Assembly (NCBI GenBank): GCA_031289775.1
Contig: JAITOY010000022.1
Location: 1 to 64,000, forward strand
Direction: 5' to 3'
DNA from: Synergistaceae bacterium
GTDB lineage: Bacteria > Synergistota > Synergistia > Synergistales > Synergistaceae
Length of the DNA stretch: 64,000 nt
The stretch's first letter is position 1. Each line of letters opens with the position of its first letter. A program made the translations under genes and the position numbers. This document shows, piece after piece, positions 6,498 to 22,711 of this stretch. Below the pieces are notes generated by a model. It was not told the origin of the DNA. It did no database searches and was given only the letters and a program-made list of their open reading frames with translations.

Positions 6498-6506
6498 GTG
6501 GTGCGA

Positions 6507-9500
6507 TTGCCTGTCTATTTGCATTTTTTAGGCGAACCCTTCGTGGAGATGGAGGGTTCGCGAGTCGAGATACCTCTGAAAAAGGCCGAGGCCGCGTTGT
6601 TTTATATGGCTTTCGAGGGGAGCGCAAACAGGAATCGCCTCAAAACGCTCCTTTGGGGCGACAGGGGAGAGGAGCTGGCGGCCGGCAATCTCAGGAACGC
6701 TGTCTACATTCTTCGCAGGATTTTGCCGGATAACTTCGTGGCGGATCGCAAAAAATTATTTCTCGAACGCTGCGAGAGGGACATAGACGGAATCCCTGAC
6801 CTCGCTGACCCATTGAAGCCGGTTGCCCCGCTCTTCTTCGAGGAGCCGTTGCGCGGTTTCGATATGCTTGGCATCAGCGAGTTCGACGAGTGGATATCGC
6901 TCGCGAGGAATTCCATCAGGGCGCTTATAGCGGACAGGCTGAGGGAGAGGGTTTTGGCCTGCTACGAGATGGAGCTTCGGGACGAGCTGAAAAACGCGCT
7001 CTCCGCGTTGCTCTCCTTCGAGCCCTACGACGAGGACTCTGTGCTCGAGCTGATGGAGGCCTGGAGCTCGGATGGCTGTGTCGCGAAAGCGGTTTCGATT
7101 TTCAACGCGTTCAGAGAGAAGATAGAATCCGAGATAGGGGTCTCCCCGAGCGAACGCGCGCAAGAGTTTTTCAAGAGGCTTCTCGCGTCGCAAGCGCCAG
7201 CCGACGCGAGAAGCCCTGGGGAGTTTTTCTGCGGCAGGAAGCGCGAGATAGAGGAGATATCGGAGGCTCTATCAGGCAAGAGGGACGACCTGCTCATATT
7301 TTTTATACACGGGGAGGCTGGCGTGGGAAAAACCGCGCTCGTTTCCAGGGCGCTCGAGCTCCACGCTCTTGAAAACAACGACGTATACGCTGCGCGTCCG
7401 TATCAGGTCGGAGAGAAGTACCCCTACTCGTCATGGAGCGGTATGGTTCTCGAAATGGGGAAAAAACTCGACGAACGCGGGATATCGGTCGATTCTACTA
7501 CCGCGTCGGTGCTGTCGAGCGTTTTTTACGACTTCGTGAACGAGAGCGGCGCCTCTGGCGCGCAGGACATAGCGCTCGCGTCGGAGCGCAATCCGGTGAT
7601 GCTCGGGCGAATGCTCGCCGGCGTCGTCGAAAAGTTGTCGCGCGGGGCGAGGCCTGTTTTGATATTGGAGGATCTTCACTGGTTCGACCAAAGATCCCTG
7701 TTTCTTCTCAGGGCGTTTCTGTCGGAGGTCGCCATTCCACTTTCGATATTTCTCACGAGCCGTCCGGAGGGTGTCCCGACCGTAACCGATCTGCTGTATG
7801 GCCTGAAGACGGCCACCAAGCGAAGGTTCCTCCAGATCGACCTTGCCCCGTTCGACGCGGCGGAGACGATGAAGTTCTGTCGCGCCTTCCTGCCTGAGGA
7901 CGTTATAAGTCTCAAGGGGGATGACTACTTTCAAAACAAAAGCGCGGGGCTTCCTCTCTTGCTCGTCGAGATGCTCCGCGTCATCTCCGGCAACCCGGAC
8001 GCCGACCCGTCATCCGGCCTCAATGGAGTCATAATGGGGCGCATGGAGGATCTTTCTCCCCTCCAGAGCGAGATCCTGTCAGTTCTGTCGGTGTTCGGCG
8101 TCGGCGCGTCGGTCGACGACTTGGCGTCTGTGCTGCGTCTGGAGCGGCGCGATATAGACGGTTCTATAGAGGAACTGCTCGGCAAGAAACTCGTGCGCGA
8201 GACACAGGGCGCCGGCGCCTTGCTTCTCGATTTCCTCCACCCCAACGTGCGCGAGTGCGTTTATAACGCCACCCCAGGCTTTAAAAAACGCGACATCCAC
8301 AGCAGGATAGCCGACGTGCAGGGGGCGCGCTATTCTCCTCACGTCTGGAACCCGGCGCTCGGTGCGATACTTCGCCACCATTACGCCATGGCCGGCCAGA
8401 CGGTTCAGGTGCTCAGACAGCACTTAGGGGAGATGAGCTTTTATATAACGCTCAACCATGATCTCTTCCCACTCGTGGAGGATCGAGCGCTGCTCTCATG
8501 TAGTGTTCCGTTCAGCAACAGAGAGGACACAGAGTATAAGATAGAGCAGGCTAGCGACCTGCTCCACGAGATAAATGCGGCATCACCCGACACGCGCGGC
8601 ACAAATATCGCCGAGAACAGGAGAATGGAGGCTTCGTACCTCGAGATACGTAGCGGATATCTCATAAGCTGGGGGGAGTATAGGGAGGGCCGGGTTTTCC
8701 TGAATAGGGCGATGAAGATAGCGAAGGAGTATGGGTTCGACGAAATAGGTATGTACTGTCTCGAACACGTCTGTCATCACTTCCTCCAGACGGACGACGG
8801 GGCGAGGCTCCTTGGGGTCGGGCGCGACCTTCTCAGGCTCTCGAAGAGGATCGGCAGGGAGAACCACATGGGGATGGCTCTGCGCTTCATAGGCATGTCG
8901 ATGCTTCTTGGCGGCGATTTCAGGAGGGCCGAGTCCGTTTTTCGCCGCTCGATGGATCTTTTCGAGGAGCTTGGCCTCACTGGCAGGAGATATACCCTCA
9001 ATCTTCTGGCTTCGCTCTGCTACATAGGTGAGATGCGCCAATGGGTCGGGGATCTCGACGTGGCGATGGAACATTTCGAGCGATGTATCGGGAGATGCGG
9101 TGACGCCGGGCTTTTCTGGGGCCGCAGTCACTTCCACGCGCACGCGGCCGACACGGCGCTCGATATGGGCGACTGGCGTCTCGTGAATAGCCACATAGAG
9201 GCTGGCGAGGCTTTTTTCGACATAAGGAGGGGTGGGAGGTGCAGCTCTCTTTTTTACAGTCTGAAGTCGATATGCGACGCCCGCGCGGGCCGGATTGGCG
9301 ATGCTCTGGAGTCGCTCCGGCTTGGGGACTCGCTTTCGTCCATCGGGAAAAGGACGTGGCGCGCGCCACAGCTAATGGCGTGTGCCTGGATCGCCCGCAT
9401 GAGAGAGTCCGGAGATGTCAATCTCGGTGGCGGCTTCCCGGAACACGAATCCGGGTTTTACGCGGCGGCCGCTGAAAAACTATACCGCGAAACCGGCGCG

Positions 9501-9575
9501 TCGCGAAGGGCCAATTTCATAAGGGACAGTTTTTTGCGGGAGGCGTCTCGCATTTCGGGGATGACGAAAACTTGA
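6507..9575 (+). CDS. SARP/BTAD-type transcriptional regulator with AAA ATPase and TPR-like tail
   Basis: About 1,022 residues. The N-terminal ~90 residues resemble the OmpR-type winged helix of SARP regulators (LKKAEAALFYMAFEG, then NLRNAVYILRRILP). A bacterial transcriptional activator (BTAD) helical domain occupies about 95-230. An AAA/NB-ARC-like ATPase follows, with Walker A GEAGVGKT near 270 and Walker B PVLILEDLHWFD near 390. The C-terminal half is helical, probably TPR repeats. Such proteins sense a signal through the ATPase/TPR part and activate nearby genes. TTG 6507 is preferred because GAGGAG (6493-6498) sits 8 bases away; GTG codons at 6498 and 6501 are too close to or inside the SD. 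It lies 63 bases before the urocanase operon, its probable target. Confidence 0.8.
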   Translation: MPVYLHFLGEPFVEMEGSRVEIPLKKAEAALFYMAFEGSANRNRLKTLLWGDRGEELAAGNLRNAVYILRRILPDNFVADRKKLFLERCERDIDGIPDLADPLKPVAPLFFEEPLRGFDMLGISEFDEWISLARNSIRALIADRLRERVLACYEMELRDELKNALSALLSFEPYDEDSVLELMEAWSSDGCVAKAVSIFNAFREKIESEIGVSPSERAQEFFKRLLASQAPADARSPGEFFCGRKREIEEISEALSGKRDDLLIFFIHGEAGVGKTALVSRALELHALENNDVYAARPYQVGEKYPYSSWSGMVLEMGKKLDERGISVDSTTASVLSSVFYDFVNESGASGAQDIALASERNPVMLGRMLAGVVEKLSRGARPVLILEDLHWFDQRSLFLLRAFLSEVAIPLSIFLTSRPEGVPTVTDLLYGLKTATKRRFLQIDLAPFDAAETMKFCRAFLPEDVISLKGDDYFQNKSAGLPLLLVEMLRVISGNPDADPSSGLNGVIMGRMEDLSPLQSEILSVLSVFGVGASVDDLASVLRLERRDIDGSIEELLGKKLVRETQGAGALLLDFLHPNVRECVYNATPGFKKRDIHSRIADVQGARYSPHVWNPALGAILRHHYAMAGQTVQVLRQHLGEMSFYITLNHDLFPLVEDRALLSCSVPFSNREDTEYKIEQASDLLHEINAASPDTRGTNIAENRRMEASYLEIRSGYLISWGEYREGRVFLNRAMKIAKEYGFDEIGMYCLEHVCHHFLQTDDGARLLGVGRDLLRLSKRIGRENHMGMALRFIGMSMLLGGDFRRAESVFRRSMDLFEELGLTGRRYTLNLLASLCYIGEMRQWVGDLDVAMEHFERCIGRCGDAGLFWGRSHFHAHAADTALDMGDWRLVNSHIEAGEAFFDIRRGGRCSSLFYSLKSICDARAGRIGDALESLRLGDSLSSIGKRTWRAPQLMACAWIARMRESGDVNLGGGFPEHESGFYAAAAEKLYRETGASRRANFIRDSFLREASRISGMTKT

Positions 9576-9638: not shown

Positions 9639-11357
9639 TTGTCCGGAAAAGCTGAGGTTCTTTACAGCGTAAAGGCGCAGAGGGGCGGGACGCTCAGGTG
9701 TAAGGGGTGGAGACAGGAGACCATCCTTCGGATGCTCGAGAACAACATGGAGAACGCCGAGCACCCGGAGAGGCTTGTCATCTACGGGGGTAATGGAAAG
9801 TGCGCCCGAAACTGGGAGTCGTATCACGCGATAGTAAAAAGCCTCAAAGAGCTGGCAGACGACGAGACGCTGGTCGTACAGTCGGGTATGCCAGTCGCGA
9901 TCTTCAAAACGCACAAGTACGCGCCGGTCGTAGTGATGGCGACCACGAACTTCATGCGCCCGACGTGGGAGACGTTTTACGACCTCGAGGCGAAAAATCT
10001 GACGATATTCGCCCAGTACACCGCCGCGCCGTGGGAGTACATAGGCACGCAGGGCGTCATAGAGGGGACGTTCGAGACGCTGGCGGCCGTCGGCATCAAG
10101 CACTACAAGGGCGACATGAAAAACAGGATATTGCTCACGGCCGGCGCTGGAGGAATGGGCGGCAACCAGACATGGGCGATGAAGATGCACGGCGGCGTCG
10201 CGATAGTTGTCGACGCTGACAGGAACATCCTCGAACGCAGGATAGAGAAAAAATACCTCGACGAGATCGTCGACTCCATAGACACCGCGATGAAGCTTGC
10301 CAAAGAGCGCGCCGCGGCGGGGAAACCTCGCTCGTTTGGCGTCGTCGGCAACGCGGCCGACTGCTTCGAGGAGGCCTACGAAAAGGGCTTTATGCCGGAT
10401 GTGCTGACTGAGATGTGTCCCTGCCACGACCCAGGTTCGTACATACCGTCAGGTTATACGCCGGAGCAGGCGAGGGAGCTCCATGAAAAGGACATAGACG
10501 TCTACATGGAGAAGGCGCGTACTACAATGAAGCGTCAGCTCGCGGTCATGCTCAAATATCTCGACAAGGGCGTTCCTGTCTTCGAATACGGCACAAGCAT
10601 ACGTAAAGAATGCCGCGATGCCGGGTTCCCCGAGTCAGAGGCTATGCGCCTTCCAGCGTTTGTGGCCGATTACATCAGGCCGCTTTTCTGCGAAGGTCGC
10701 GGGCCGTTCCGTTGGACTTGTGTCTCCGGCGAGGCGAGTGACCTGAAGAGGACGGACGAGCTGGCCATGGAGCTTTTCGGAGACGACCCGATAGTTGGCC
10801 GCTGGATACCGCTCGCGAGCAAATTCCTTCCTATAGAGGCGCTCCCGGCTCGAGTCTGCTACATGGGTTTCGGCCAGCGCAAGAAGTTCGCGCTCGCTGT
10901 CAACGAGCTGATCCGCAAGGGCGAGATAAAGGGGCCCGTCGCTTTTTCGCGCGACAACCTCGACTCCGGCTCCATCGTGAACCCGACGTTCGAGTCCGAG
11001 AGGATGCCGGACGGCGGAGACCTCATATCCGACTGGCCAATGCTGAATGGGTTGTTGAACGCCTGCGGCATGTGCGACCTCATTGCGATTCAGGCGAACT
11101 ACTCGATGGGCGAGGCTGTGCATACCGGCGTTACGCAGATCGCCGACGGCACGGAAGACGCTAAGATCCGCCTCGAGGTGGCCATGACGGTCGACGCCGG
11201 CATAGGGGTTGTGCGCCACGCCCAGGCCGGGTATGACAGCGCGAAGACTGTGGCGAATGGCAAGGGGCCGCTCACGGACGAGTCGATAAACGTCCCGCTC
11301 TGGTGGCAGCCCGCCGAGTTCGTGACGTTTGGCCCCGACGAGAGAGCCAAAAACTGA
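9639..11357 (+). CDS. urocanase family protein, divergent (urocanate or related hydratase)
   Basis: 572 residues from a TTG start with a GGGAGG SD 8 bases upstream. Family hallmarks are present: LVIYGGNGKCARNWESYHAI near the N-terminus, LVVQSGMPVAIFKTHKYAP, the NAD-binding LLTAGAGGMGGNQ near residue 165, PDVLTEM near 255, and ADGTEDAKIRLEVAM near 500. Urocanase adds water to urocanate using tightly bound NAD+ as an electrophile. The canonical segment with a GGGVGxGxSxHAG pattern is replaced here by IAIQANYSMGEAVHTGVTQ, and the TDQTSAHDP region reads TEMCPCHDPGSYIP. It is therefore a divergent branch and may act on a modified urocanate. It is followed after one base by a cyclodeaminase-like gene. 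Confidence 0.8.
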   Translation: MSGKAEVLYSVKAQRGGTLRCKGWRQETILRMLENNMENAEHPERLVIYGGNGKCARNWESYHAIVKSLKELADDETLVVQSGMPVAIFKTHKYAPVVVMATTNFMRPTWETFYDLEAKNLTIFAQYTAAPWEYIGTQGVIEGTFETLAAVGIKHYKGDMKNRILLTAGAGGMGGNQTWAMKMHGGVAIVVDADRNILERRIEKKYLDEIVDSIDTAMKLAKERAAAGKPRSFGVVGNAADCFEEAYEKGFMPDVLTEMCPCHDPGSYIPSGYTPEQARELHEKDIDVYMEKARTTMKRQLAVMLKYLDKGVPVFEYGTSIRKECRDAGFPESEAMRLPAFVADYIRPLFCEGRGPFRWTCVSGEASDLKRTDELAMELFGDDPIVGRWIPLASKFLPIEALPARVCYMGFGQRKKFALAVNELIRKGEIKGPVAFSRDNLDSGSIVNPTFESERMPDGGDLISDWPMLNGLLNACGMCDLIAIQANYSMGEAVHTGVTQIADGTEDAKIRLEVAMTVDAGIGVVRHAQAGYDSAKTVANGKGPLTDESINVPLWWQPAEFVTFGPDERAKN

Positions 11358-11358
11358 T

Positions 11359-11925
11359 ATGCGGATAGAGGAAATTTTTGGCAAGGTGACGGACAGTGGC
11401 GACGCCACAGTAGGCGGCGGAGCCGCTTCCGCCATTGCCGGGGCGATGGCCGCCGGGCTCGTGAGCATGGTGTCGCTTCTTTCGAGGGGCAGGGAACTGG
11501 GTCTCGACGACGCGGCTTACGTTGGTTTTGCCGAGGAACTGAAAGCCATCTCCGAGGAATTCAGGGCGGGAGCGTACGCTGACGAGGTTGCGTTCCTCGG
11601 GATAAAGGCCGCGCTTGCCCTGCCGAAAGCGACGGACGAGGAAAAGTCGACAAGGCGAGGAGCGCTCTCTGCGGCGGCCATAACCGCCGCGGACGTGCCG
11701 CTTGAAAACGCTGGAAGAACTGTGCGGGTTCTGGAGATAGTCGCTGCCCTTGAAGGAAAATACAACACGTCCGCCGCGTCTGACATGGAGTGCGGCAGGA
11801 TGTTAGCGAGGAGCGCGCTCTCGGGTTGTCTGCTCAACGTGGAAGCGAACCTGCCCATGATAAAGGATCCTGGCGCGAAGGAAAGGCTTGAAAAAGCGTC
11901 GGAGGAACTCAAGCGCCTGCTGTAA
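11359..11925 (+). CDS. fchA: formimidoyltetrahydrofolate cyclodeaminase-like protein
   Basis: 188 residues of the formiminotransferase-cyclodeaminase C-terminal family as a free-standing protein. Visible: GDATVGGGAASAIAGAMAAGL near the N-terminus, the classic glycine-rich start of the family, then AGAYADEVAF and a central NAGRTVRVLEI helix. The family converts formimino-THF to methenyl-THF with release of ammonia, or acts as methenyl-THF cyclohydrolase (FchA). The ATG at 11359 lies one base after the urocanase stop, so the two are co-translated. Placement after a urocanase supports a role in one-carbon recovery from an imidazole ring, although the formiminotransferase half is not in this window. 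Confidence 0.8.
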   Translation: MRIEEIFGKVTDSGDATVGGGAASAIAGAMAAGLVSMVSLLSRGRELGLDDAAYVGFAEELKAISEEFRAGAYADEVAFLGIKAALALPKATDEEKSTRRGALSAAAITAADVPLENAGRTVRVLEIVAALEGKYNTSAASDMECGRMLARSALSGCLLNVEANLPMIKDPGAKERLEKASEELKRLL

Positions 11926-12134: not shown

Positions 12135-12998
12135 TTGCAGTTATTTTTCGAGCAGTTGCTGAACGGGCTTGCAATAGGTTCCATATACGCGCTTATAACG
12201 CTCGGGCTCGCGCTCGTATACGGAATCCTTCGTATCCTGCACGTTGCGCACGCCGCCGTCTACACTGTCGGGGCGTATGTGGGACTCGCGATATACAGCC
12301 ACACGTCGACTCTGCTGCTTGCCATTCCAGGCAGCATGGTGGTCTGCGCGCTCATCGGAGTGGCGATAGAGCGGTTAGTCTACTTCCCTCTCCTCAAGTA
12401 CCCTCCGTATGTTCCGCTGATAAGCAGCATAGCGTTGTTTCTAAGTCTGGAGGAGCTGTGCCGGATCATCGCCGGTCCAGAGCTCCTCACATTTCCGGCC
12501 GCTCTTCCGTTTCCGTCATTTTCGGCCGGTGGGGTGAGGGTGTCGGGCACGCTTGTCGCTGTGTATGTCGTGACAGCCCTCGTGCTAGCGATCCTCTGGT
12601 TCATCACGTCCAAGACAGAGTTCGGCCTCGCGATGCGCGCCGCCTCCCAGGACATGGACGTGGCCTCCTCCCTCGGCGTGGACAGCCGCAGGGTCGTGGA
12701 CGCGATGTTTGCGATAGGATCCGCCATAGCGTCCATAGCCGGGATTCTCGTCGCGATATATTACAATCAGGTTTATTCGACCATGGGCACGATGCCGGCG
12801 TACAAAACGCTCGCGCTTATCGTCGTGGGTGGCATGGGCTCTGTTCCAGGCGCGGTGGTCGCCTCGATCCTGCTAGGCCTCGGCGAGACGCTTTTGATTG
12901 GATTTGCCAACATTCCAATGCCAAGAGACGCGCTTGCGTTTATCGCCATGATAATCGTGCTGATGTGGAAGCCTGCGGGCCTTCTTGGCAGGGGCTGA
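12135..12998 (+). CDS. livH: branched-chain-type amino-acid ABC transporter permease (LivH)
   Basis: 287 residues, about eight hydrophobic helices. The start LFFEQLLNGLAIGSIYALIT is a textbook LivH N-terminus, and GGMGSVPGAVVASILLGL near residue 235 is the conserved cytoplasmic loop that contacts the ATPases. LivH and LivM form the membrane pore of HAAT-family importers for branched-chain or other amino acids. The start is TTG 12135; the SD is weak. It opens the livHMGFK group, 209 bases after the cyclodeaminase gene. That gap holds no obvious terminator, so co-transcription with the urocanase genes is possible. Confidence 0.92.
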   Translation: MQLFFEQLLNGLAIGSIYALITLGLALVYGILRILHVAHAAVYTVGAYVGLAIYSHTSTLLLAIPGSMVVCALIGVAIERLVYFPLLKYPPYVPLISSIALFLSLEELCRIIAGPELLTFPAALPFPSFSAGGVRVSGTLVAVYVVTALVLAILWFITSKTEFGLAMRAASQDMDVASSLGVDSRRVVDAMFAIGSAIASIAGILVAIYYNQVYSTMGTMPAYKTLALIVVGGMGSVPGAVVASILLGLGETLLIGFANIPMPRDALAFIAMIIVLMWKPAGLLGRG

Positions 12999-13009: not shown

Positions 13010-13936
13010 ATGGATTATTTCGCGACCGTGGCAACGCTCATAGTCATACAGGCAATAGCGGCCTGCGGCCTCAACGTGATCGTAGGGTACGCAGGGCAGA
13101 TTTCGCTCGGGCACGCCGCGTTTTTTGGCATTGGGGCATATGCGAGCGCCATGTTGACGACAAAGGCCGGGCTCACGTTCTGGCAGGCTCTGCCTGCGGC
13201 GCTCCTCATAACCATGCTCCTCGGGTTTCTTCTCGGGCTGCCGAGCCTGAGGGTGAGAGAGGATTTTCTTGCCATAACTACGATAGGGATCAATTTTATT
13301 GTCGAGGCCGTGTTTATCTACACGCCATTTTTCGGAGGCGCCCTCGGCATAGGCGGAATTCCGCGAGTCGTTGTAATGGGCGGCAGGCTCGGCAACAACC
13401 AGTTTTTAGCGCTCTGCCTCGTTTTTCTGGTTCTCTCGCTCGCGCTCTGCAGGCAGTTTGCCAGGGCTTGGGCCGGACTCGCCTGTTTCGCTGTGCGCGA
13501 GGACGAGACGGCGGCTTCGAGCATGGGCATCTCACCGGTGCGCGCCAAACTCTCGGCCTTTGTCCTCGGAACCGGCATGGCCGGGCTTGCCGGTACTCTG
13601 TATGCCCACTACGCCCGCTTCATATCGGCCGGGGACTTTGGGTTCCCTGTGTCCATTTCAATTATGTCAATGGTGGTTCTCGGAGGTATGGGCACGCTCT
13701 TCGGGCCACTGCTCGGGGCCATGATTATAGGGATACTGCCGGAGATATTCCGTCCGCTGATAGACTATCGCATGTTCATCTATTCCGTTCTTTTGCTCCT
13801 CATGATCCGATTTCAGCCCGGCGGACTCCTCGGTGATAGCAGCCTCGTCGTTGGTCTGCTGAAAAGCTTGAAAAAACTGGTAAAACCTAAAAACATCGCA
13901 AATCCTCGAGAAATAGGAGGAGATGGAGATGTCTAG
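13010..13936 (+). CDS. livM: branched-chain-type amino-acid ABC transporter permease (LivM)
   Basis: 308 residues from the ATG at 13010. Hydrophobic throughout. Family marks: CGLNVIVGYAGQISLGHAAF near residue 20 (the LivM signature), and GGMGTLFGPLLGAMIIGILP near 230. Partner permease of LivH. A longer open frame upstream overlaps livH and is not used. It ends with a short basic tail that overlaps the livG start by 8 bases. Confidence 0.92.
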   Translation: MDYFATVATLIVIQAIAACGLNVIVGYAGQISLGHAAFFGIGAYASAMLTTKAGLTFWQALPAALLITMLLGFLLGLPSLRVREDFLAITTIGINFIVEAVFIYTPFFGGALGIGGIPRVVVMGGRLGNNQFLALCLVFLVLSLALCRQFARAWAGLACFAVREDETAASSMGISPVRAKLSAFVLGTGMAGLAGTLYAHYARFISAGDFGFPVSISIMSMVVLGGMGTLFGPLLGAMIIGILPEIFRPLIDYRMFIYSVLLLLMIRFQPGGLLGDSSLVVGLLKSLKKLVKPKNIANPREIGGDGDV

Positions 13937-14699
13937 GGCGCTGTTGGAGGTGCACGGCATCTCCGTAGTTTTCGGAGGTTTGAGGGCTGTGGACGACGTG
14001 AGTTTCGAGATCCATGACAGAGAGATTCTCGGGCTGCTCGGGCCAAATGGGGCCGGGAAGACGACTTGCTTCAACGCCATCTCCGGCGTCTACCCGCCGA
14101 CGTTGGGAGATATACTGCTCGACGGGGCGAGGACAAACGGCGCGCCCCCGCATGGGATGGCAAGGCTCGGGGTCGGCCGCACGTTTCAGATAGTCCGTCC
14201 GTTCTCCGGCCTGTCCGTGCGCGAGAACGTGATTGTTGCCCTCGGAGGCCCCCGTTATCGTGGAAACTTACTGCGCTCGCTCACGTCGTGGAGAAAGAAG
14301 GGCATTGCTGACGAGGCTGGAGCGATACTCGACAGAGTGGGGCTTCTCGACGTCGCCGATCGCACGTCAGGCCAACTTCCGATCGGCAGTCTGCGTCGGG
14401 TGGAGATTGCGCGAGCCCTCGCTCTGAGCCCGAGGCTTCTCCTTCTCGACGAGTCATTCTCGGGTCTTCGCAGTACGGAGATAGCCCAGATAGAGGAGCT
14501 GATCCGCTCCATAAGGGAGGATGGGGTCTCAGTTCTCCTCATAGAGCACAACATGAAAGTGGCGATGGGCCTCTCTGATCGCGTGGTCGTACTTGATCAC
14601 GGCAGGAAACTTGCTGAGGGAAAGCCATCGGAAGTTGCCTCGAACCAGGCTGTCATAGAGGCGTATCTCGGCAGGGGGGAGCGCGGTAATGTTGCTTGA
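13929..14699 (+). CDS. livG: branched-chain-type amino-acid ABC transporter ATP-binding protein (LivG)
   Basis: 256 residues. Walker A is LGPNGAGKTT near residue 40. The Walker B region reads LSPRLLLLDESFSG, and the H-loop is in LIEHNMKVAMGLSDRVVVLD. The usual LSGGQ signature is degenerate here, reading PIGSLRRVEIARAL, where canonical LivG has LSYGxQRRLEIARAL; this is unusual for a working ABC ATPase. Of two ATG codons, 13929 has an AGGAGG SD 8 bases away, whereas 13923 is only 2 bases from it. One of two ATPases powering the LivHM pore. Confidence 0.9.
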   Translation: MSRALLEVHGISVVFGGLRAVDDVSFEIHDREILGLLGPNGAGKTTCFNAISGVYPPTLGDILLDGARTNGAPPHGMARLGVGRTFQIVRPFSGLSVRENVIVALGGPRYRGNLLRSLTSWRKKGIADEAGAILDRVGLLDVADRTSGQLPIGSLRRVEIARALALSPRLLLLDESFSGLRSTEIAQIEELIRSIREDGVSVLLIEHNMKVAMGLSDRVVVLDHGRKLAEGKPSEVASNQAVIEAYLGRGERGNVA

Positions 14700-15408
14700 C
14701 GTCTCCGGGCTGTCCATAGCTTATAAAGGCCTCGAAGCTCTGCACGGCGTCTCTCTTCACATTGAGGAGGGCGAGCTCGTCTCTGTCATTGGGGCTAACG
14801 GGGCCGGAAAAACGACGCTTCTCCAGTCACTCATAGGTTGGCAGCAGCCGTCGGGCGGAATAGTTTCCTTCAATGGGCGGGACATCACAGGGGAGCGCTC
14901 GCATATCAGGGCGCGCCTCGGTATTCGTATTGTGCCGGAGAAGGCGAGGGTCTTCACGAGGCTTACCGTCCATGAAAATTTGATGATGGGCGCGTATGGC
15001 ATGAGCGGCCGGCGCGAGAAAATGGCGGTCAGGGATAGTCTCAGGCGCCTCTACTCTCTGTTTCCCGTATTGGAAAGACGGAGCGGCCAGCTCGCGTCGA
15101 CGCTCTCCGGCGGCGAACAGCAGCAGCTCTCCATAGCGCGCGCCTGCATATCGGCGCCGAAACTTCTTTTGGTTGACGAGGTCTCCATGGGGCTGATGCC
15201 CATCTTGGTCGACCAGGTGTTCGAGCTTCTCGCGCAGCTGAACAGAGAGGAGGGTCTGACTATTCTCCTTGTGGAACAAAACGCCCTTGCGTCGCTTAAA
15301 ATATCGCACAGGGCATACGTTTTGGAGACAGGCGACATTGTCCTTGAGGGCGAGGCGGATCGAATGCTCAACGACGAACGGATTCGTGAAGCTTATCTCG
15401 GTATATGA
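14689..15408 (+). CDS. livF: branched-chain-type amino-acid ABC transporter ATP-binding protein (LivF)
   Basis: 239 residues. Walker A IGANGAGKTT near residue 35, signature LSGGEQQQLSIARA near 138, Walker B PKLLLVDEVSMGL, and the H-loop replaced by LVEQNALASLKISHRAYVLE, as is normal for LivF. It overlaps livG by 11 bases. Works with LivG as the ATPase pair of the importer. Confidence 0.93.
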   Translation: MLLDVSGLSIAYKGLEALHGVSLHIEEGELVSVIGANGAGKTTLLQSLIGWQQPSGGIVSFNGRDITGERSHIRARLGIRIVPEKARVFTRLTVHENLMMGAYGMSGRREKMAVRDSLRRLYSLFPVLERRSGQLASTLSGGEQQQLSIARACISAPKLLLVDEVSMGLMPILVDQVFELLAQLNREEGLTILLVEQNALASLKISHRAYVLETGDIVLEGEADRMLNDERIREAYLGI

Positions 15409-15435
15409 CGCGAAAAATATGGAGGTGTTTTGCAA

Positions 15436-16590
15436 ATGAAGGTAAAGTCAACGTTGTGCGCGATTATTGTGCTTCTTGCCTGTTTATTCTGCGGCGCGGC
15501 GAGTGCGGCAGATACGATTAAAATCGGCGTCCTCGCTCCGATCACTGGTTTCGCGGCGTCGGATGGGTTCAGCACTATCGAGTCGATCAAGCTGGCGCAG
15601 GAGAAGGTGAACGCGGCGGGCGGCGTCCTCGGCAAGCAGATCGAGGTCGTGTACTACGACGACGCGGCGGATCCGAAACAGGCCGTGCCGCTCGCCAATA
15701 AACTCATCACACAGGACAAGGTCGTCGCGTTTGTCGCCGGCTCATACAGTATGCCGTCGCGAGCGGTGGCCCCGATATTCGACGAGGAGGAAATTCCGCT
15801 CGTGGCCGCCTACGCCCTGCACCCTGAGATAACAAATGGCGACTATACGTTCCGTAACGGTTTCCTGGGGACGACCGAGGGGCGCGTCGCGGCGTACACG
15901 GCGCTCGAGCTCTTCAAGGCTAAGACTGTAGCTCTTGTCACGAGCGACAACGACTTCGGCCAGACGCTAAAGGACGGCTTTGTTGGATATCTCAAGAGCG
16001 TGGGGCGCGAAAAAGATCTTATACTCCAGCAGACATATCCCAGCAGCGAAAAGGATTTTGCCGTCTACCTCTCTAAGATAAAGGACGCGGCGCCCGATGT
16101 TGTTTTTTTCAGCGGCTACTACTTCCAGACCGCGCCAGCACTGAAACAGGCTAAGGAGATGGGCATAGAGAACATACGCTTCATAGGCGAGCAGGGCTCC
16201 GACTCTCCGAAGATGGCGGAGATAGCGCTCGACGCCGCCGAGGGTTTCGTGATATTGACGAACCTCGACCGCGACGATAAACGTCCATTCGTCCAGGAGT
16301 TTCTCAAGTCCTACCGCGATCGCCACAATATAGAGCCTGACATGGTTGGCGCGTCCGCCTACGACGCGTTTATGATAATAGTCGACGCGATAAAGACGGC
16401 CGGCGGCACGGACGGAAAGGCAATTCGCGACGCGATAGCCGCCACGAAAAATTACGATGGTCTCACAGGGGTCATCAACGGTTTCGACGCGGCTGGCGAG
16501 GTGCTGAAACCGGTTCAGTTGCAGGAGATAAAGGAAGGCAAGTTCCGCTATTTCGGCATAGTGACGGACTCTGAGCTGATCAAGCCCTGA
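15436..16590 (+). CDS. livK: amino-acid ABC transporter substrate-binding protein (LivK-type)
   Basis: 384 residues from the ATG at 15436, chosen because GGAGGT lies 10 bases upstream; the in-frame TTG at 15430 is only 4 bases from it. Signal peptide MKVKSTLCAIIVLLACLFC ending near ASA-AD, so the protein is exported. The mature start DTIKIGVLAPITGFAASDG is the Peripla_BP_6 pattern, followed by AAGGVLGKQIEVVYYDDAAD and AYDAFMIIVDAI. It binds the amino acid in the periplasm and delivers it to LivHM. The true substrate cannot be read from sequence; proximity to the urocanase genes suggests histidine-related compounds as well as branched-chain acids. Confidence 0.92.
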   Translation: MKVKSTLCAIIVLLACLFCGAASAADTIKIGVLAPITGFAASDGFSTIESIKLAQEKVNAAGGVLGKQIEVVYYDDAADPKQAVPLANKLITQDKVVAFVAGSYSMPSRAVAPIFDEEEIPLVAAYALHPEITNGDYTFRNGFLGTTEGRVAAYTALELFKAKTVALVTSDNDFGQTLKDGFVGYLKSVGREKDLILQQTYPSSEKDFAVYLSKIKDAAPDVVFFSGYYFQTAPALKQAKEMGIENIRFIGEQGSDSPKMAEIALDAAEGFVILTNLDRDDKRPFVQEFLKSYRDRHNIEPDMVGASAYDAFMIIVDAIKTAGGTDGKAIRDAIAATKNYDGLTGVINGFDAAGEVLKPVQLQEIKEGKFRYFGIVTDSELIKP

Positions 16591-16685: not shown

Positions 16686-17903
16686 TTGAAGCTGACGCAA
16701 GAACAAAACGACATGTTAAACGGTGTCCATGGCGAAGCCGTAGCCTACTCCATGCGCATTCAGGTTGGGATGGGCAGGATATTCGGCGCGAAGAGGATGG
16801 TTCCCATCACGAGGGCTCACGTCGCATTGAGCGCGCAGGACGCCGACGTTTGGTTCGTGGAGAAGATGCTCGGTATGGGCGGGAAGTGCAAAATAGCCCC
16901 GACTGTCAACCCGAGCATAGACCTGTCATATTTAAATCAGCATCTGGCTCAGATACCGGAGGCTGGCCTCGATATCGTTTCGCGGACGAACGAGGCGTAC
17001 AAAAAGATCGGCGCGGTGTTGAGCTTCAACTGCACGCCATATCTCCAGCAAAACGTCCCGGCCTTCGGAGAGGTCGTCGGTTTTTCCGAGTCGAGCGCCA
17101 CGCCGTACGTCAACTCGGTTTTGGGCGCCAGAACGAACCGCGAATCCTCGCAGAGCGCGCTGTGCGCGGCTATAACAGGGCTTGTCCCGGAGTACGGTCT
17201 TTTGCTCGACGAGAACAGGCGCGCCGAGATATTGGTCGAGGTGAAGGCGAAAATAAAGGACGACTTCGACTATCAACTGCTCGGCTGGTGCTACCCGCTT
17301 GTCCACAACGGCCCGGAGGTTCCCGCGTTCCTTGGGATTGATGAGCGGGCTACGCCGGAGGGCTTCATGAACTTCGGGGCGCAGTTGAACACGTCGGGGG
17401 CGGTCGGGCTCTACCACGTCGTAGGGATCACCCCTGAGGCGCCGGACGAGCGAATCGTCTTCGGCGGGAAGCCGCCGAAGCGCAAGGTCACGATCGGCGA
17501 CGAGGAACTGGATATGGTGCGCCGCAAGATATGCGGAGGGCCCGGCAAGGTAGACTTCGCTATGTTCGGCTGTCCACACCTCACAATCCGCCAGGTCGCG
17601 GACATTGCCAGGATATGCGAAGGCAAAAAATTCGCCGTCGACGTCTGGGTGCTGACGAGCTCGCTTACAAAAGAGCTGGCTCAGAGGATGGGCCTTCAGG
17701 AGATCATAAATAGGTCGGGAGGGCATGTTATCGCCGACACCTGCATCGACGTCCCGCCCTGCTGGCGCCCATATTACGGGGGCGTCGGGGTGACCGACTC
17801 GCCAAAGTGCGCTTATTACAACGAGATACGGAAGATCGACTTTAAAATAAGGCCGCTCGGCGTCGCGATAGAGTCCGCGATCGCGGGGGAGGTGCGCCTA
17901 TGA
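16686..17903 (+). CDS. aconitase X large (catalytic) subunit
   Basis: 405 residues, TTG start with GGGAGG 7 bases upstream. The aconitase X catalytic domain (DUF521) is recognisable from MHGEAV-like VHGEAVAYSMRIQVGMGRIF, the central GAVLSFNCTPYLQQNVPAFGE, AALTG-like AAITGLVPEYGLLLDENRRA, and the C-terminal CPHLTIRQ. In this family three cysteines bind an Fe-S or metal centre. Here the large and swivel domains are separate genes overlapping by 4 bases. In bacteria the two-subunit form (type IIb) has been shown to dehydrate cis-3-hydroxy-L-proline; in archaea two-subunit AcnX is a phosphomevalonate dehydratase. The bacterial context and adjacent TRAP importer favour a hydroxyproline-like substrate. 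Confidence 0.85.
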   Translation: MKLTQEQNDMLNGVHGEAVAYSMRIQVGMGRIFGAKRMVPITRAHVALSAQDADVWFVEKMLGMGGKCKIAPTVNPSIDLSYLNQHLAQIPEAGLDIVSRTNEAYKKIGAVLSFNCTPYLQQNVPAFGEVVGFSESSATPYVNSVLGARTNRESSQSALCAAITGLVPEYGLLLDENRRAEILVEVKAKIKDDFDYQLLGWCYPLVHNGPEVPAFLGIDERATPEGFMNFGAQLNTSGAVGLYHVVGITPEAPDERIVFGGKPPKRKVTIGDEELDMVRRKICGGPGKVDFAMFGCPHLTIRQVADIARICEGKKFAVDVWVLTSSLTKELAQRMGLQEIINRSGGHVIADTCIDVPPCWRPYYGGVGVTDSPKCAYYNEIRKIDFKIRPLGVAIESAIAGEVRL

Positions 17904-18313
17904 GCGCGACGTTCAAGTGTTCGGCCATTGCCGGGGGAAGCGCGTCCGGACCGGCGCTCGTGAGCGACGAGCCCATCTGCTTCTATCTGGTCGAGCCAGA
18001 CACTGGCATCGTGATCGAGGAAGGGCACGTCCTCAAAGGCAAAACTTTGGCCGGCACGGTCTTGGTTGCCCATGCTGGAAAAGGGAGCTCCGTAGTGCAG
18101 ATGGATGGACTCTACAAAATTGCCGCGCGCCACAAGGGGCCGGTCGCCGTAATTCTCCGCAACCCGGATCCAGTCTTCGTCTCAGCGCTTCTTGTCATGG
18201 AGATATCATCCGTCTACGACGTCGACGAGAAGTTTTATGACTTCATCGCCGGCAGAGACGGCATCCATATTTCGGTAGACGCGTCTGGCGGGCTTATAAC
18301 CGTGGAGGAGTGA
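17900..18313 (+). CDS. aconitase X small (swivel) subunit
   Basis: 137 residues. Matches the AcnX swivelling domain (DUF126): FKCSAIAGGSASGPALVSDE at the start and HAGKGSSVVQMDGLYKIAAR in the middle, where the GKGSS loop carries the active-site serine pair seen in aconitase-type swivel domains. Translationally coupled to the large subunit (ATGA overlap 17900-17903). A 145-base gap follows before dctP. Confidence 0.85.
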   Translation: MSATFKCSAIAGGSASGPALVSDEPICFYLVEPDTGIVIEEGHVLKGKTLAGTVLVAHAGKGSSVVQMDGLYKIAARHKGPVAVILRNPDPVFVSALLVMEISSVYDVDEKFYDFIAGRDGIHISVDASGGLITVEE

Positions 18314-18458: not shown

Positions 18459-19457
18459 ATGAGAAAAGCGGTATTTTTGGGACTTGCGCTCTCTATTCTA
18501 ATGGCTCTGCTGTGTATCCCGTCGTTTGCGGCTAACCCTGAGTATACGATAAGGGTTGGCTCCATCGTCTCTGAGATCCATCCGGACATGGTAGCGATGA
18601 GGGATGTTTTTGTGCCGCAGGTGGAGAAGGAGTCAGGCGGCAGGATAAAGGTGGAGCTCTACCCGAACGCGCAGCTCGGCGGCGACAGGGAGCTGACGGA
18701 GGGAGTCCAGATGGGCACTGTGCATATCGCGATCCCCGCGAGCTCGGCCATAGCCGGTTTCGACAGGCGCATCCAAGTCCTCGACCTCCCGTACCTCTTC
18801 ACGAGCAGGGAGGCAGCTTTTGAGGCGCTCGACGGAGATCTGGGCAAAAAGCTCAACGAGTACATGATAGAAAAGGGCTTCTGGAACCTCGGCTACCAGG
18901 AGAACGGTATGCGTCACGTGACGAACAACAAGAAGCCCATCAAGACCCCGGAGGATCTCAAGGGCATCAAGATTCGCACGATGGAGAACCCGATGCACAT
19001 AGCTTACTTCAAGGAACTCGGCGCCAACCCGACCCCGATGAGCTGGGGCGAGCTGTACACGGCCCTCCAGCAGGGCGTCGTCGACGCTGAGGAGAACCCG
19101 TATGCCATGATCGACGATGGCAAGTTCAACGAGGTGCAGAAGTACGTCTCCGAGACAGGTCACGTCTTCTCCGTCACTCTCCTTATAGCTAACAAGAAGT
19201 TCGTCGAAGGTCTGCCCGAGGATCTCCGCAGCGTTCTTATAAAGGCGGGCCACGACTACGCGTTAGCGCAGCGCAAGCTGATTGGCGGTTTGGAGAGCGA
19301 ATACAAGACAAAACTCGTCAACAGCGGAATGCAGGCGAACGAGCTGACGGCCGAAGATAAAAAGCCGTTTGTGGAAGCCACAAAAAATGTCTACGCGCAG
19401 TTCGAGGAGCAGCTCGGCAAGGAGATCATGGATATAGCTAGAAAAGCCCAGAAATAA
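18459..19457 (+). CDS. dctP: TRAP transporter substrate-binding protein (DctP)
   Basis: 332 residues from the ATG at 18459, with GAGGAGG 8 bases upstream. A signal peptide ends near SFA-AN (about residue 24). DctP features: IRVGSIVSEIHPDMVAMRDV at the mature start, GGRIKVELYPNAQLGGDREL, the ligand-contact region PEDLKGIKIRTMENP with the conserved Arg, and GVVDAEENPYAMI. It binds organic or amino-type acids in the periplasm. It is the first gene of a complete TRAP system that follows aconitase X, so its ligand may be the AcnX substrate or a related hydroxy acid. Confidence 0.93.
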   Translation: MRKAVFLGLALSILMALLCIPSFAANPEYTIRVGSIVSEIHPDMVAMRDVFVPQVEKESGGRIKVELYPNAQLGGDRELTEGVQMGTVHIAIPASSAIAGFDRRIQVLDLPYLFTSREAAFEALDGDLGKKLNEYMIEKGFWNLGYQENGMRHVTNNKKPIKTPEDLKGIKIRTMENPMHIAYFKELGANPTPMSWGELYTALQQGVVDAEENPYAMIDDGKFNEVQKYVSETGHVFSVTLLIANKKFVEGLPEDLRSVLIKAGHDYALAQRKLIGGLESEYKTKLVNSGMQANELTAEDKKPFVEATKNVYAQFEEQLGKEIMDIARKAQK

Positions 19458-19533: not shown

Positions 19534-20046
19534 GTGACTTTCAAGAAATTTATCAACAATATGGAGGAGTACCTCTGCGTATGGGGCACGGTCTTCATGA
19601 CCGTCGTCGTTTTTGTACAGGTCATAATGAGATACGTCTTCGCGAACTCGCTCTCCTGGAGCGAGGAGTTCGCGAGGTTTACGTTCCTCTGGATATCTTG
19701 GGTCGGCGCCAGCTACGCCGTCAAGGAAGGCAGCCACTTCAGGGTCGAGATGTTCGTCAATAATATGAAGAGGGACGCCAGGAGGTATTTCGAGCTGTTT
19801 GTCCTTGTGGCTTGGTTTCTATTCTGCTTTTTCCTGACATGGTACGGCACAAAGCTGGTGATTTTCCTGGTTGACACTGGCCAGACGTCCGCAGCCATGC
19901 AGATACCGATGTCGTGGCCCTACGCGTCCGTCCCGGTCGGCTGCGGTCTCATGTGCCTAAGGCTCATCATAGAGATGTGGAAGGTCATAAAGGGCGAGTA
20001 CAAGTCAAAAGACCGCGAGAAGTCGGCGGTGGAGGGTGGGCTGTAA
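19534..20046 (+). CDS. dctQ: TRAP transporter small membrane subunit (DctQ)
   Basis: 170 residues, GTG start. Four predicted helices, with the DctQ marks LCVWGTVFMTVVVFVQVIMR, then NSLSWSEEFARFTFLWISWV and GASYAVKEGSHFRVEMF. The small subunit bridges binding protein and DctM in the sodium-driven importer. It is followed directly by dctM. Confidence 0.92.
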   Translation: MTFKKFINNMEEYLCVWGTVFMTVVVFVQVIMRYVFANSLSWSEEFARFTFLWISWVGASYAVKEGSHFRVEMFVNNMKRDARRYFELFVLVAWFLFCFFLTWYGTKLVIFLVDTGQTSAAMQIPMSWPYASVPVGCGLMCLRLIIEMWKVIKGEYKSKDREKSAVEGGL

Positions 20047-21330
20047 TTGTATGAATCCATGATTCTTTTCGGTATAATGATCATATGCATAGCGCTCAGC
20101 ATACCGATAGGCATCACGCTCGGCATATCGACGGCACTTTGCCTGTGGCTGTTCTCCGACGTTTCGCTGATCATGATCGCCCAGAAATCCGCCACTGGCT
20201 TGGACTCGTTCCCGCTCTTGGCCATTCCTTTCTTCATGCTAGCCGGCTCCCTCATGAGCGAGGGGGGGATAGCAAAGAGGATAGTCAATCTTGCCGACAG
20301 TCTAATAGGTTTCGTCGCTGGCGGGCTCGCAATGGTGACTGTCATGGCCTGCATGTTCTACGCAGCCATCTCAGGCTCCGGCCCGGCTACCGTCTCAGCC
20401 ATAGGGTCGTTCATGATCCCGGCGATGAAGGAGCGCAACTACGACGCGCCGTTCGCGGCTGCGATAACAGCCGCAGCCGGGACTATAGGCGTCATTATAC
20501 CGCCGAGCATCCCGTTCGTCATATACTGTGTCGTAGCGCAGGCGTCCATTGGGGACATGTTTCTGGGCGGCGTAATTCCCGGGATCATGATAGGCATCGC
20601 TCTGATGATCGTCTGTATGATTACGTCAAAGAAAAGGGGCTACGTCAGCTCGACGGCCCGCCCTACCGCCAGATCCATCGGCAAGGCGTTCCGCGAGGCC
20701 ATTTTCGCCATCATGGTGCCGGTCATCATTCTGGGAGGCATCTACTCCGGCGTCTTCACCCCGACGGAGGCTGCCGTTGTCGCGGTCGCGTACTCGATCG
20801 TCGTAGGGAAATTTATCTACAAAGAGCTCAGCAACAAGGCTATCTACGAGTGTTTTCGCTTATGCGGGCTCATGAACGGCGCCCTCGAGTTCATGATAGG
20901 CCTCTCGATGGCGTTCGCGGCGTTTCTCGCCATGGAGCAGATTCCGGCAGCTATAGCGACTTGGCTGACGGGCCTCTCAGACAGCTGGATAGTCATAATG
21001 CTCGTTATAAATGTGATACTTCTCATCTTGGGCTGTTTCGTCGACAATATCGCCGCCGTCATAATCCTGACGCCGATACTTCTGCCTGTCGTGACAAAAC
21101 TTGGAATACACCCGATCCACTTCGGGCTCATCATAACAGTCAACCTAGCCTGCGGCTTCCTCTCACCGCCGTATGGCATCAACCTGTTCGTAGCCTCCGC
21201 CGTCTCCGGCGAGAGCATAGAAAAAGTCTCCGTAGCCGTGCTCCCGTCGTTCATAGCGGTGATAATCTGTCTGATGCTCTTTACATACTTCCCGATACTG
21301 ACAATGGGACTCGTAAACCTGGCGAAATAA
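20047..21330 (+). CDS. dctM: TRAP transporter large permease subunit (DctM)
   Basis: 427 residues with a TTG start directly abutting the dctQ stop and a GGAGGGTGG SD inside dctQ. About twelve helices, with the family marks LLAIPFFMLAGSLMSEGGIA near residue 58, ISGSGPATVSAIGSFMIPAM, IPPSIPFVIYC, TPTEAAVVAVAYSI near 240, and the C-terminal NLACGFLSPPYGINLFVASA. It is the transport channel of the TRAP system. Confidence 0.93.
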   Translation: MYESMILFGIMIICIALSIPIGITLGISTALCLWLFSDVSLIMIAQKSATGLDSFPLLAIPFFMLAGSLMSEGGIAKRIVNLADSLIGFVAGGLAMVTVMACMFYAAISGSGPATVSAIGSFMIPAMKERNYDAPFAAAITAAAGTIGVIIPPSIPFVIYCVVAQASIGDMFLGGVIPGIMIGIALMIVCMITSKKRGYVSSTARPTARSIGKAFREAIFAIMVPVIILGGIYSGVFTPTEAAVVAVAYSIVVGKFIYKELSNKAIYECFRLCGLMNGALEFMIGLSMAFAAFLAMEQIPAAIATWLTGLSDSWIVIMLVINVILLILGCFVDNIAAVIILTPILLPVVTKLGIHPIHFGLIITVNLACGFLSPPYGINLFVASAVSGESIEKVSVAVLPSFIAVIICLMLFTYFPILTMGLVNLAK

Positions 21331-21331
21331 A

Positions 21332-21363
21332 CATAAAAGCCTCGGGAGAACGCCCCGGGGCTT
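21332..21363 (-). terminator. intrinsic terminator, end of the thiamine operon
   Basis: AAGCCtCGGG and CCCgGGGCTT (21337-21363) form a near-perfect stem. On the minus strand the stem is followed by TTTTA, immediately after the tenA stop. It also sits 6 bases after dctM on the plus strand and may work in both directions. Confidence 0.7.
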
Positions 21364-22034
21364 CAATTATACGACATCTGGCATTTGTATGACATGTCCC
21401 AGAATAAATACTCGAACTCGACGCTTGACTTGAAAATTCCCTCGATTTGCCTAAGTTCGGCATCAGATTTGCGTTCGCAGGTTTTGTCGAGCGCCTCGTA
21501 GAACCACTCGAACGACGCGGCGAACTGCTCGCTCGCGTAGCCCTGTATCCAAGACCTGTAAAAGTTATTTTGAAGTTCGGCCGGGTAATCCGCGACGAGG
21601 CGTCTCGCGTAATCGGAGTAAGTCCAGGCGCAGGGGAAAAGCGTCGCGATTATCTCCGCTGTGCCGCCGGACTGTCCTACTGCGAGCATGTTCGCAGTGT
21701 ACGTTCTGTTGAAAAGAGACGGTCTAACAGCCTCCATCTCGCTTTGTGTGACGTCGAACGAGCTCATGTATTCCCTGTGGATGTTCATCTCTCCGTTCAG
21801 CAAGGCGTTCTGCGAAGCGGAGAAGCGTGACATCATCTCCTCCGTCTCGGACTTCAGAACGCCGAGAGCGAAGACCTTAGCGTAAGACAGGAGATATTTA
21901 TAATCCTGCAAAAGGTAGAATTTGAACTTTGTCCTCTCAAGCGTGCCGCGCCCCAGCTCCTGTACGAACGGATGGCGGTACCCGTCCTCCCAGACGGAGG
22001 AGGCGAGTTCTTTCAATCCTCTCGAAAATGACAT
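21363..22034 (-). CDS. tenA: TenA family thiaminase II / aminopyrimidine hydrolase
   Basis: 223 residues, all-helical TenA/THI-4 family. Visible: HPFVQELGRGTLERTKFKFY and LLQDYKYLLSYAKVFALG at the N-terminus, and LFPCAWTYSDYARRL near residue 135 with the catalytic cysteine of TenA. The late SWIQGYAS and EYLFWDMSY segments are also typical. TenA hydrolyses aminomethyl-pyrimidine breakdown products of thiamine to recover HMP for ThiD. It is the last gene of thiD-thiE-tenA under the TPP riboswitch. Confidence 0.9.
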   Translation of the reverse strand: MSFSRGLKELASSVWEDGYRHPFVQELGRGTLERTKFKFYLLQDYKYLLSYAKVFALGVLKSETEEMMSRFSASQNALLNGEMNIHREYMSSFDVTQSEMEAVRPSLFNRTYTANMLAVGQSGGTAEIIATLFPCAWTYSDYARRLVADYPAELQNNFYRSWIQGYASEQFAASFEWFYEALDKTCERKSDAELRQIEGIFKSSVEFEYLFWDMSYKCQMSYN

Positions 22035-22054
22035 ATCCTTCGTTGCCCCTTTCG

Positions 22055-22681
22055 TTAACCTTCGAAGGCGGTCTTTAGCTCCCTCGCCGCCGATTCGATA
22101 TCGGGCGCCCCTATGACGGCGGATACGACCGCAAGCCCGTCAACGCCTGTGGCCTTTAGCAGGCGCGCGTTTTGGGTGTTTATGCCGCCGATGACGACGA
22201 TAGGTATAGAAATTCCATATCTAATTTTTCGGAGCTCCTCCATCGACACCAAATTCGTGTCCGTCTTTGTCCCCGTAGCGAACAGAGCCCCGGCGCCTAT
22301 GTAGTCGGCGCCAGCCTCAACTGCCGCTATCGCCTCCGCGAGGTTCGATGCTGACACGCCAAGAATCATGTCGGCTCCGACTAGGTTCCTCACGATGCGT
22401 GCGGGGATGTCGCTTTGTCCGACGTGAACGCCGTCCGCGCCGACCGCGAGCGCGATGTCAAGCCTGTCGTTTATTATGAGGGGAACGCCATGATCGTCCG
22501 TGACGGTCTTGACCCTTTGCGCGATTTCGAAGAACTCGCGCAGCGAGGCGTTTTTTTCCCGAAGCTGCACGAGAGTGCAGCCGCCATTTATCGCGCTCTG
22601 TACGGCCAACTCGATCGTGGGCGCGCTCATCAAGCCCCTGTCCGTCACGAGGCATATCGAATAATCGACCTTGCGCTTCAT
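22055..22681 (-). CDS. thiE: thiamine-phosphate synthase
   Basis: 208 residues, TIM-barrel ThiE. Marks: ICLVTDRGL near the N-terminus, GGCTLVQLREKNASLREFFE with the pyrimidine-pyrophosphate loop, LIINDRLDIALAVGADGVHV followed by GQSD, ADYIGAGALFATGTKTDTN (thiazole site), and IPIVVIGGINTQNA. It joins HMP-PP and thiazole phosphate to make thiamine phosphate. Positioned 30 bases after thiD. Confidence 0.95.
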   Translation of the reverse strand: MKRKVDYSICLVTDRGLMSAPTIELAVQSAINGGCTLVQLREKNASLREFFEIAQRVKTVTDDHGVPLIINDRLDIALAVGADGVHVGQSDIPARIVRNLVGADMILGVSASNLAEAIAAVEAGADYIGAGALFATGTKTDTNLVSMEELRKIRYGISIPIVVIGGINTQNARLLKATGVDGLAVVSAVIGAPDIESAARELKTAFEG

Positions 22682-22711
22682 AGCGCGAGCTTCGCCAGCA
22701 GCTTTATTGAG

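Follow-up and report, generated by a model that had tools for sequence, protein, structure and literature searches.

A cross-phylum clade of divergent urocanases with a probable role in methylhistidine breakdown

Which substrate is converted by a urocanase that keeps the fold, the NAD-binding motif and the catalytic cysteine of its family, yet differs at some 15 otherwise invariant sites? The question is raised by a 64,000-nucleotide stretch of a Synergistaceae genome (GenBank assembly GCA_031289775.1, contig JAITOY010000022.1, positions 1 to 64,000; hereafter the window), in which such a gene is separated by a single base from a free-standing cyclodeaminase gene (Table 1). A preliminary description had reported this pairing, the two altered urocanase segments, and the lack of hutH, hutI and formiminotransferase genes next to the urocanase, all of which was borne out; the partner genes sit on other contigs of the genome (2.37 Mb, 83% complete). 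It had further proposed a new branch of the family that perhaps acts on a modified urocanate, for example the thiol analogue from ergothioneine.

Table 1. Features of the window around the divergent urocanase (all on the forward strand).
Feature	Position	Strand	Basis or remark
BTAD/AAA large transcriptional activator, likely cluster regulator	6498..9575	+	Pfam BTAD + AAA_16
Clade-A urocanase, proposed N-methylurocanate hydratase	9639..11357	+	572 aa; 3 Pfam urocanase domains, tree, residue table, AF2
Altered NAD-contact loop, residues 253-271, PDVLTEMCPCHDPGSYIPS	10395..10451	+	Q264M, S266P, G273 deletion (1UWL numbering), fixed in clade A
T450-F451 (N454-R455 of P. putida)	10986..10991	+	Phe in 87/88 clade members, Asp in 1
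Replaced glycine-rich loop, residues 482-500, IAIQANYSMGEAVHTGVTQ	11082..11138	+	Residue comparison
Free-standing cyclodeaminase (FTCD_C)	11359..11925	+	PF04961, 137 bits vs cut-off 24.5; 1 base past urocanase stop
LivH-type ABC permease	12135..12998	+	Sequence
LivM-type ABC permease	13010..13936	+	Sequence
LivG-type ATPase	13923..14699	+	Homologues by 670-aa urocanase: 66% G014 (L127), 64% G020 (L131)
LivF-type ATPase	14689..15408	+	Homologues by 670-aa urocanase in G014 (L127), G020 (L131), 61-62%
LivK-type binding protein	15430..16590	+	Peripla_BP_6; 66-67% homologues by 670-aa urocanase
AcnX (aconitase X) large subunit, hydro-lyase	16686..17903	+	PF04412
AcnX small (swivel) subunit	17900..18313	+	PF01989
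TRAP transporter DctP	18459..19457	+	Homologues near clade-A urocanase: L035, L037, L038, L040, L048, L052
TRAP transporter DctQ	19534..20046	+	Sequence/homologues
TRAP transporter DctM	20047..21330	+	Sequence/homologues

Active-site changes fixed in clade A

The urocanase reading frame is intact and begins with a TTG codon preceded by GGAGGG. Its product exceeds the cut-offs of all three Pfam urocanase domains and of the curated hutU model TIGR01228 (608 vs 375 bits) and retains the NAD-fold motif GAGGMGG. An AF2 model (pLDDT 84.7) displays the urocanase fold, with the thiourocanate hydratase 7NED as best PDB match in Foldseek; with pLDDT values below 50 in the changed loops (residues 448-452 and 489-491), this ligand-free model speaks to the fold, not to the pocket. 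Fold, NAD domain, catalytic cysteine and Arg362 are shared with the ordinary HutU enzymes 1UWL and 2FKN, to which the overall identity is about 45%.

The window enzyme belongs to a group referred to here as clade A, whose residues were compared with those of 13 ordinary enzymes and 29 members of a distant type of 670 residues (1UWL SEQRES numbering). About 15 changes are fixed in clade A at sites that are invariant in the ordinary enzymes and mostly also in the 670-residue type, i.e. K87M, G130A, M132Y, S136P, I138E, A181N, Q264M, S266P, N325T, H444N, R455F, T457S and H489Q, together with replacement of the GGGVG loop. Four of these, namely the substitutions Q264M, H444N and R455F and the loss of the GGG loop, are absent from all ordinary urocanases that were compared, including those with as little as 30% identity. 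In the window enzyme, MCPCHDPGSYIP at residues 259-270 takes the place of QTSAHDPLNGY(I/V/L)P in ordinary enzymes, and IAIQANYSMGEAVHTGVTQ at residues 482-500 that of their (H)HGGGVGxGxSxHAG. Hence, the HutU hallmarks Arg455 (a residue of the catalytic mechanism), the QTSAH loop, the GGGVG loop and His444 are represented by F451, MCPCH, QANYS and N440. Arg455 is the residue mutated in the R450A structure 8Q9U of S-methylthiourocanate hydratase, according to the title of that structure. Cys411, established as catalytic for the urocanase family (HAMAP/UniProt), and Arg362 are retained as C407 and R358. Judged by these residues, clade A is not a plain urocanate hydratase.

The altered segments recur nearly letter for letter in 88 clade members from several phyla; clade A is a tight cross-phylum clade and no isolated oddity. 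The near-uniformity of the changes over 88 sequences points to an enzyme under selection and rules out a decayed or chimeric gene. Orthologues with 74-90% identity were found in 8 of 60 relatives, whose other urocanases are merely about 31-34% identical to that of the window. A scan of 84,980 species added further members at 70-92% identity among the best 80 matches listed, and the hosts among the matches listed include Synergistota, Bacillales, Clostridia, Calditrichota, Actinomycetota and delta-proteobacterial metagenome-assembled genomes (MAGs). In a maximum-likelihood tree, of the kind the preliminary description had called for, clade A is monophyletic (support 100/100) and lies outside the ordinary urocanate hydratases, apart from the enzymes of P. 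putida, B. subtilis, Geobacillus and Legionella as well as from the 670-residue type. Its sister group (95/96) consists of two hydratases of modified urocanates, 7NED from Paenibacillus and the S-methylthiourocanate hydratase 8Q9V from Variovorax, whose long branches are a caveat for this placement. An additional ordinary-type urocanase is present in 45 of 46 carrier genomes, the exception being a MAG of 1.7 Mb, so that a lineage-specific replacement of the ordinary enzyme is ruled out. Several clusters contain two clade-A copies (L056, L058, L068, L069, L083, L086, L092, L096, L111 and L123), some of which are near-identical, while some flank amino-acid ABC transporter genes.

Partner enzymes in carriers and in the window genome

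Linkage was counted over 66 clade-A loci with a minimum length of 12 kb. A HutI gene is present in 64 and a lyase gene in 54 of these. Near the urocanase, the terminal gene set consists of either formiminotransferase and cyclodeaminase or an M20 hydrolase: the hydrolase was found in 41 loci, formiminotransferase in 16, and both together in none (Fisher p = 2e-9, which is indicative only, as the loci are interrelated and hence not independent). At the site of His83 in P. putida HAL, the linked lyases with an MIO triad that cover it carry Asp in 49 cases, Cys in 7 and His in none, while His83 is present in 6 of 7 MIO lyases from other loci of the same set. In the clade-A-linked HutI, the glutamate of the HADE motif is replaced by Ala, Cys or Gly. 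Moreover, these HutI, the linked formiminotransferases and the linked cyclodeaminases separate from the copies in ordinary hut clusters.

The window cyclodeaminase groups with the clade-A-linked ones. Its start is the ATG at 11359, not the TTG at 11329 of the listed reading frame. It matches the C-terminal domain of FTCD over the full length of PF04961, yet is free-standing and of a lineage separate from the hut-cluster enzymes; with the methenyl-tetrahydrofolate cyclohydrolase model NF045657 (FchA) it scores 86 bits against a cut-off of 275.

While HAL-like and imidazolonepropionase-like partners are clustered with the urocanase in relatives, those of the window genome are scattered over other contigs and are of a hybrid type. 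The search for hutH or ergothionase that the preliminary description had suggested yielded three lyase-family genes, on contigs C65, C38 and C10. An Asp83 lyase on C38 adjoins an ordinary 670-residue urocanase, which has its own cyclodeaminase and is 31% identical to the window enzyme. The only HutI found, along with one formiminotransferase, is encoded on C23, and both fall on the clade-A side of their groupings. The C10 copy lacks the MIO triad and is ergothionase-like (GSVGYLG); it is accompanied by genes for an MttB-like methyltransferase, an SSS transporter and an AcnX-like protein (G000, L046 1527-9506), a cluster for which betaine or ergothioneine breakdown is possible.

A caveat for reading the partners comes from genus g16 (G015, G030 and G036), in which an Asp83 lyase, a clade-A-kind HutI and formiminotransferase occur with an ordinary 670-residue urocanase; a clade-A urocanase was not found in these three genomes. 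Hence, Asp83 alone is no proof of a modified substrate and was dropped as such. Either unmodified histidine is handled as well by the lyase, HutI and formiminotransferase of g16, or an Asp at site 83 does not mark specificity.

Regulator, Liv, AcnX and TRAP genes

Homologues of the BTAD/AAA activator adjoin clade-A urocanases as well as 670-residue urocanases in relatives. Likewise, Liv genes with 61-67% identity lie beside a second 670-residue urocanase in G014 and G020, and thus the importer follows either kind of urocanase. These two loci (L127 and L131) also encode a methyltransferase along with LivHMGFK, and an SDR dehydrogenase gene is located downstream of the second 670-residue urocanase in L127 (7448-16000), L131 (934-9890) and L134 (6602-11867).

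Of 9 genomes with a clade-A urocanase, 5 have AcnX homologues with at least 66% identity, as against 0 of 52 other relatives (p = 2e-5, uncorrected for relatedness), and in all 5 they are linked to the clade-A urocanase. In G019, a TRAP operon comprises AcnX, LarA, two HutG, HutI and the clade-A urocanase; the cluster is devoid of a lyase, and no Asp83 lyase was found in that genome. The pocket of this urocanase (L040 6036-7742 / L055) has changed once more, with F451D, Y488S and CPDHDP. Speculatively, this arrangement suggests a second way into the pathway, in which an imidazole hydroxy acid would be dehydrated. For the AcnX family, of which few substrates are known, the linkage offers a new context that is open to testing. 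Adjoining the TRAP genes, positions 21363-23530 of the window (reverse strand) hold three thiamine-salvage-like genes, which by eye resemble TenA, ThiE and ThiD.

Substrate and proposed pathway

A lead to the substrate is provided by the Bacillales. Bacterial degradation of Ntau-methylhistidine has been published (Beliaeva, Atac and Seebeck 2022, doi 10.1021/acschembio.2c00437, cited in PMC11432326 and PMC9960084). That pathway reportedly involves a urocanase-family member likewise clustered with HAL-like and imidazolonepropionase-like enzymes. The anaerobes considered here would differ from it in having formiminotransferase and cyclodeaminase rather than the M20 hydrolase, and the window genome in its scattered partner genes. 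The organism is reportedly 'Bacillus terra', and glutamate and N-methylformamide are said to be the products. This name resolves in taxonomy to Siminovitchia terrae (genome L074), which has four urocanases, one of them inside clade A with 72% identity to the window enzyme. The cluster of this one encodes the urocanase, HutI, an M20 hydrolase and an Asp83 lyase (HAL), and it is the only one among the S. terrae clusters examined with all four enzyme kinds. Presumably, its urocanase is the one studied in the Ntau-methylhistidine work. On the strength of this cluster, clade A is read as N-methylurocanate hydratases, and the window urocanase probably belongs to a methylhistidine pathway, here in a setting that is new in being anaerobic and coupled to folate.

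From the sequences we infer the substrate, each reaction step and the release of methylamine as follows. An MIO lyase with Asp or Cys at site 83 would convert methylhistidine into methylurocanate. The NAD-dependent clade-A hydratase may then turn Ntau-methylurocanate, or a close N-methylated urocanate, into methyl-imidazolonepropionate, which a matching imidazolonepropionase could open to N-methylformimino-glutamate. In Bacillales, the M20 hydrolase would subsequently free glutamate. In Synergistota and Clostridia, the formiminotransferase is instead predicted to move the methylformimino group to tetrahydrofolate, before the cyclodeaminase, in the present case that of the window gene pair, closes the ring to methenyl-tetrahydrofolate and releases methylamine. 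Such a route would run parallel to the ordinary histidine route, with the clade-A urocanase as second enzyme. Methylhistidine is a residue of actin and myosin in animal muscle, and the group of the window bacterium comprises amino-acid fermenters. If the proposal holds, methylhistidine breakdown extends from soil Bacillus to anaerobic fermenters, in which the folate-coupled ending saves a one-carbon unit. Furthermore, a large number of genes that carry the annotation 'urocanate hydratase' in several phyla probably encode something else, for which F451/N440 in the hydratase and Asp/Cys83 in the lyase may serve as markers.

The evidence is not all on one side. The lyase beside the ordinary urocanase and the HutI of the window genome resemble those of g16 (the HutI motif being HSEG vs HEGG in g16), a genus that pairs the same types of lyase, HutI and formiminotransferase with an ordinary urocanase; a complete methylhistidine pathway in the window organism itself is thus a tentative proposal. 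Together with the score against the hutU model, the retained Cys411 and Arg362 and the formimino enzymes among the neighbours, the gene set of g16 would also suit a divergent but ordinary urocanate hydratase, i.e. an isoenzyme under different regulation, for instance under anaerobic conditions or with another transporter. Such an isoenzyme seems unlikely given the four changes seen in no ordinary urocanase (at sites 264, 444 and 455 and in the GGG loop), an ordinary urocanase already in place in nearly all carriers, and closest relatives that act on modified urocanates. The latter relationship would in turn fit a thiourocanate or S-methylthiourocanate hydratase of ergothioneine breakdown, as do the fold match with 7NED and the MIO-less ergothionase-like genes, one on C10 and another 3 kb upstream of the clade-A urocanase of Acidaminobacter hydrogenoformans. 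Like the window enzyme, 7NED is devoid of R455 (Ile) and has a polar residue at 138, whereas its QTSAH motif and a good part of its glycine loop are unaltered; 8Q9V shares the deleted glycine loop and gives the best NCBIfam score, whereas it keeps R455. In both thio enzymes, however, Cys411 is replaced by Gly, a change absent from the window enzyme, and both curated models are missed by more than 240 bits (NF058530, 558 vs 930; NF058531, 636 vs 880). In addition, the linked lyases of all loci but one have the MIO triad, unlike ergothionase, and formimino enzymes would not fit a substrate with sulfur at C2. A thio substrate is therefore highly improbable and was discarded in spite of the MIO-less genes. 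The ergothioneine suggestion of the preliminary description is thus not supported, while its new branch gains support from the separate clade, the clade's own lyase and imidazolonepropionase, and the second urocanase.

With the formimino enzymes kept and S. terrae inside the clade, an N-methylated urocanate fits better than a thio compound, but the AcnX, LarA and TRAP genes are not accounted for by the methylhistidine pathway. Their restriction, at the above identity, to clade-A carriers among the relatives and the G019 cluster, with its altered pocket and a HutI of ordinary type, may indicate another urocanate as substrate, with a modified ring or derived from the side chain, such as Npi-methyl- or 2-oxo-urocanate, or one that the linked AcnX, as dehydratase, would make from an imidazole hydroxy acid, with LarA as racemase and TRAP-mediated import. 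This is a minority option in our estimate, as AcnX occurs in 3 of the 66 loci and is missing from nearly all outside Synergistota, while most clusters include an ammonia lyase. Conceivably, though as a long shot, both views could be combined in Synergistota, where one modified-urocanate hydratase would be fed from methylhistidine by the Asp83 lyase and from an imidazole hydroxy acid by AcnX, with LarA and TRAP import, forming (methyl)urocanate; the cyclodeaminase would then free methylamine from N-methylformimino-tetrahydrofolate, a new adduct.

Besides the N-methylurocanate hydratases proposed here, another divergent urocanase type, 39-41% identical to the window enzyme, was observed in Bacillaceae (L135 6253-11613, L137 6287-9668, L138 5993-11183 and L140 6848-8515). 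It adjoins genes for a CaiB-type CoA transferase and an acyl-CoA dehydrogenase, and three of the four loci also contain an ordinary-type urocanase and ETF. This arrangement looks like a pathway from imidazolepropionate via a CoA ester to urocanate.
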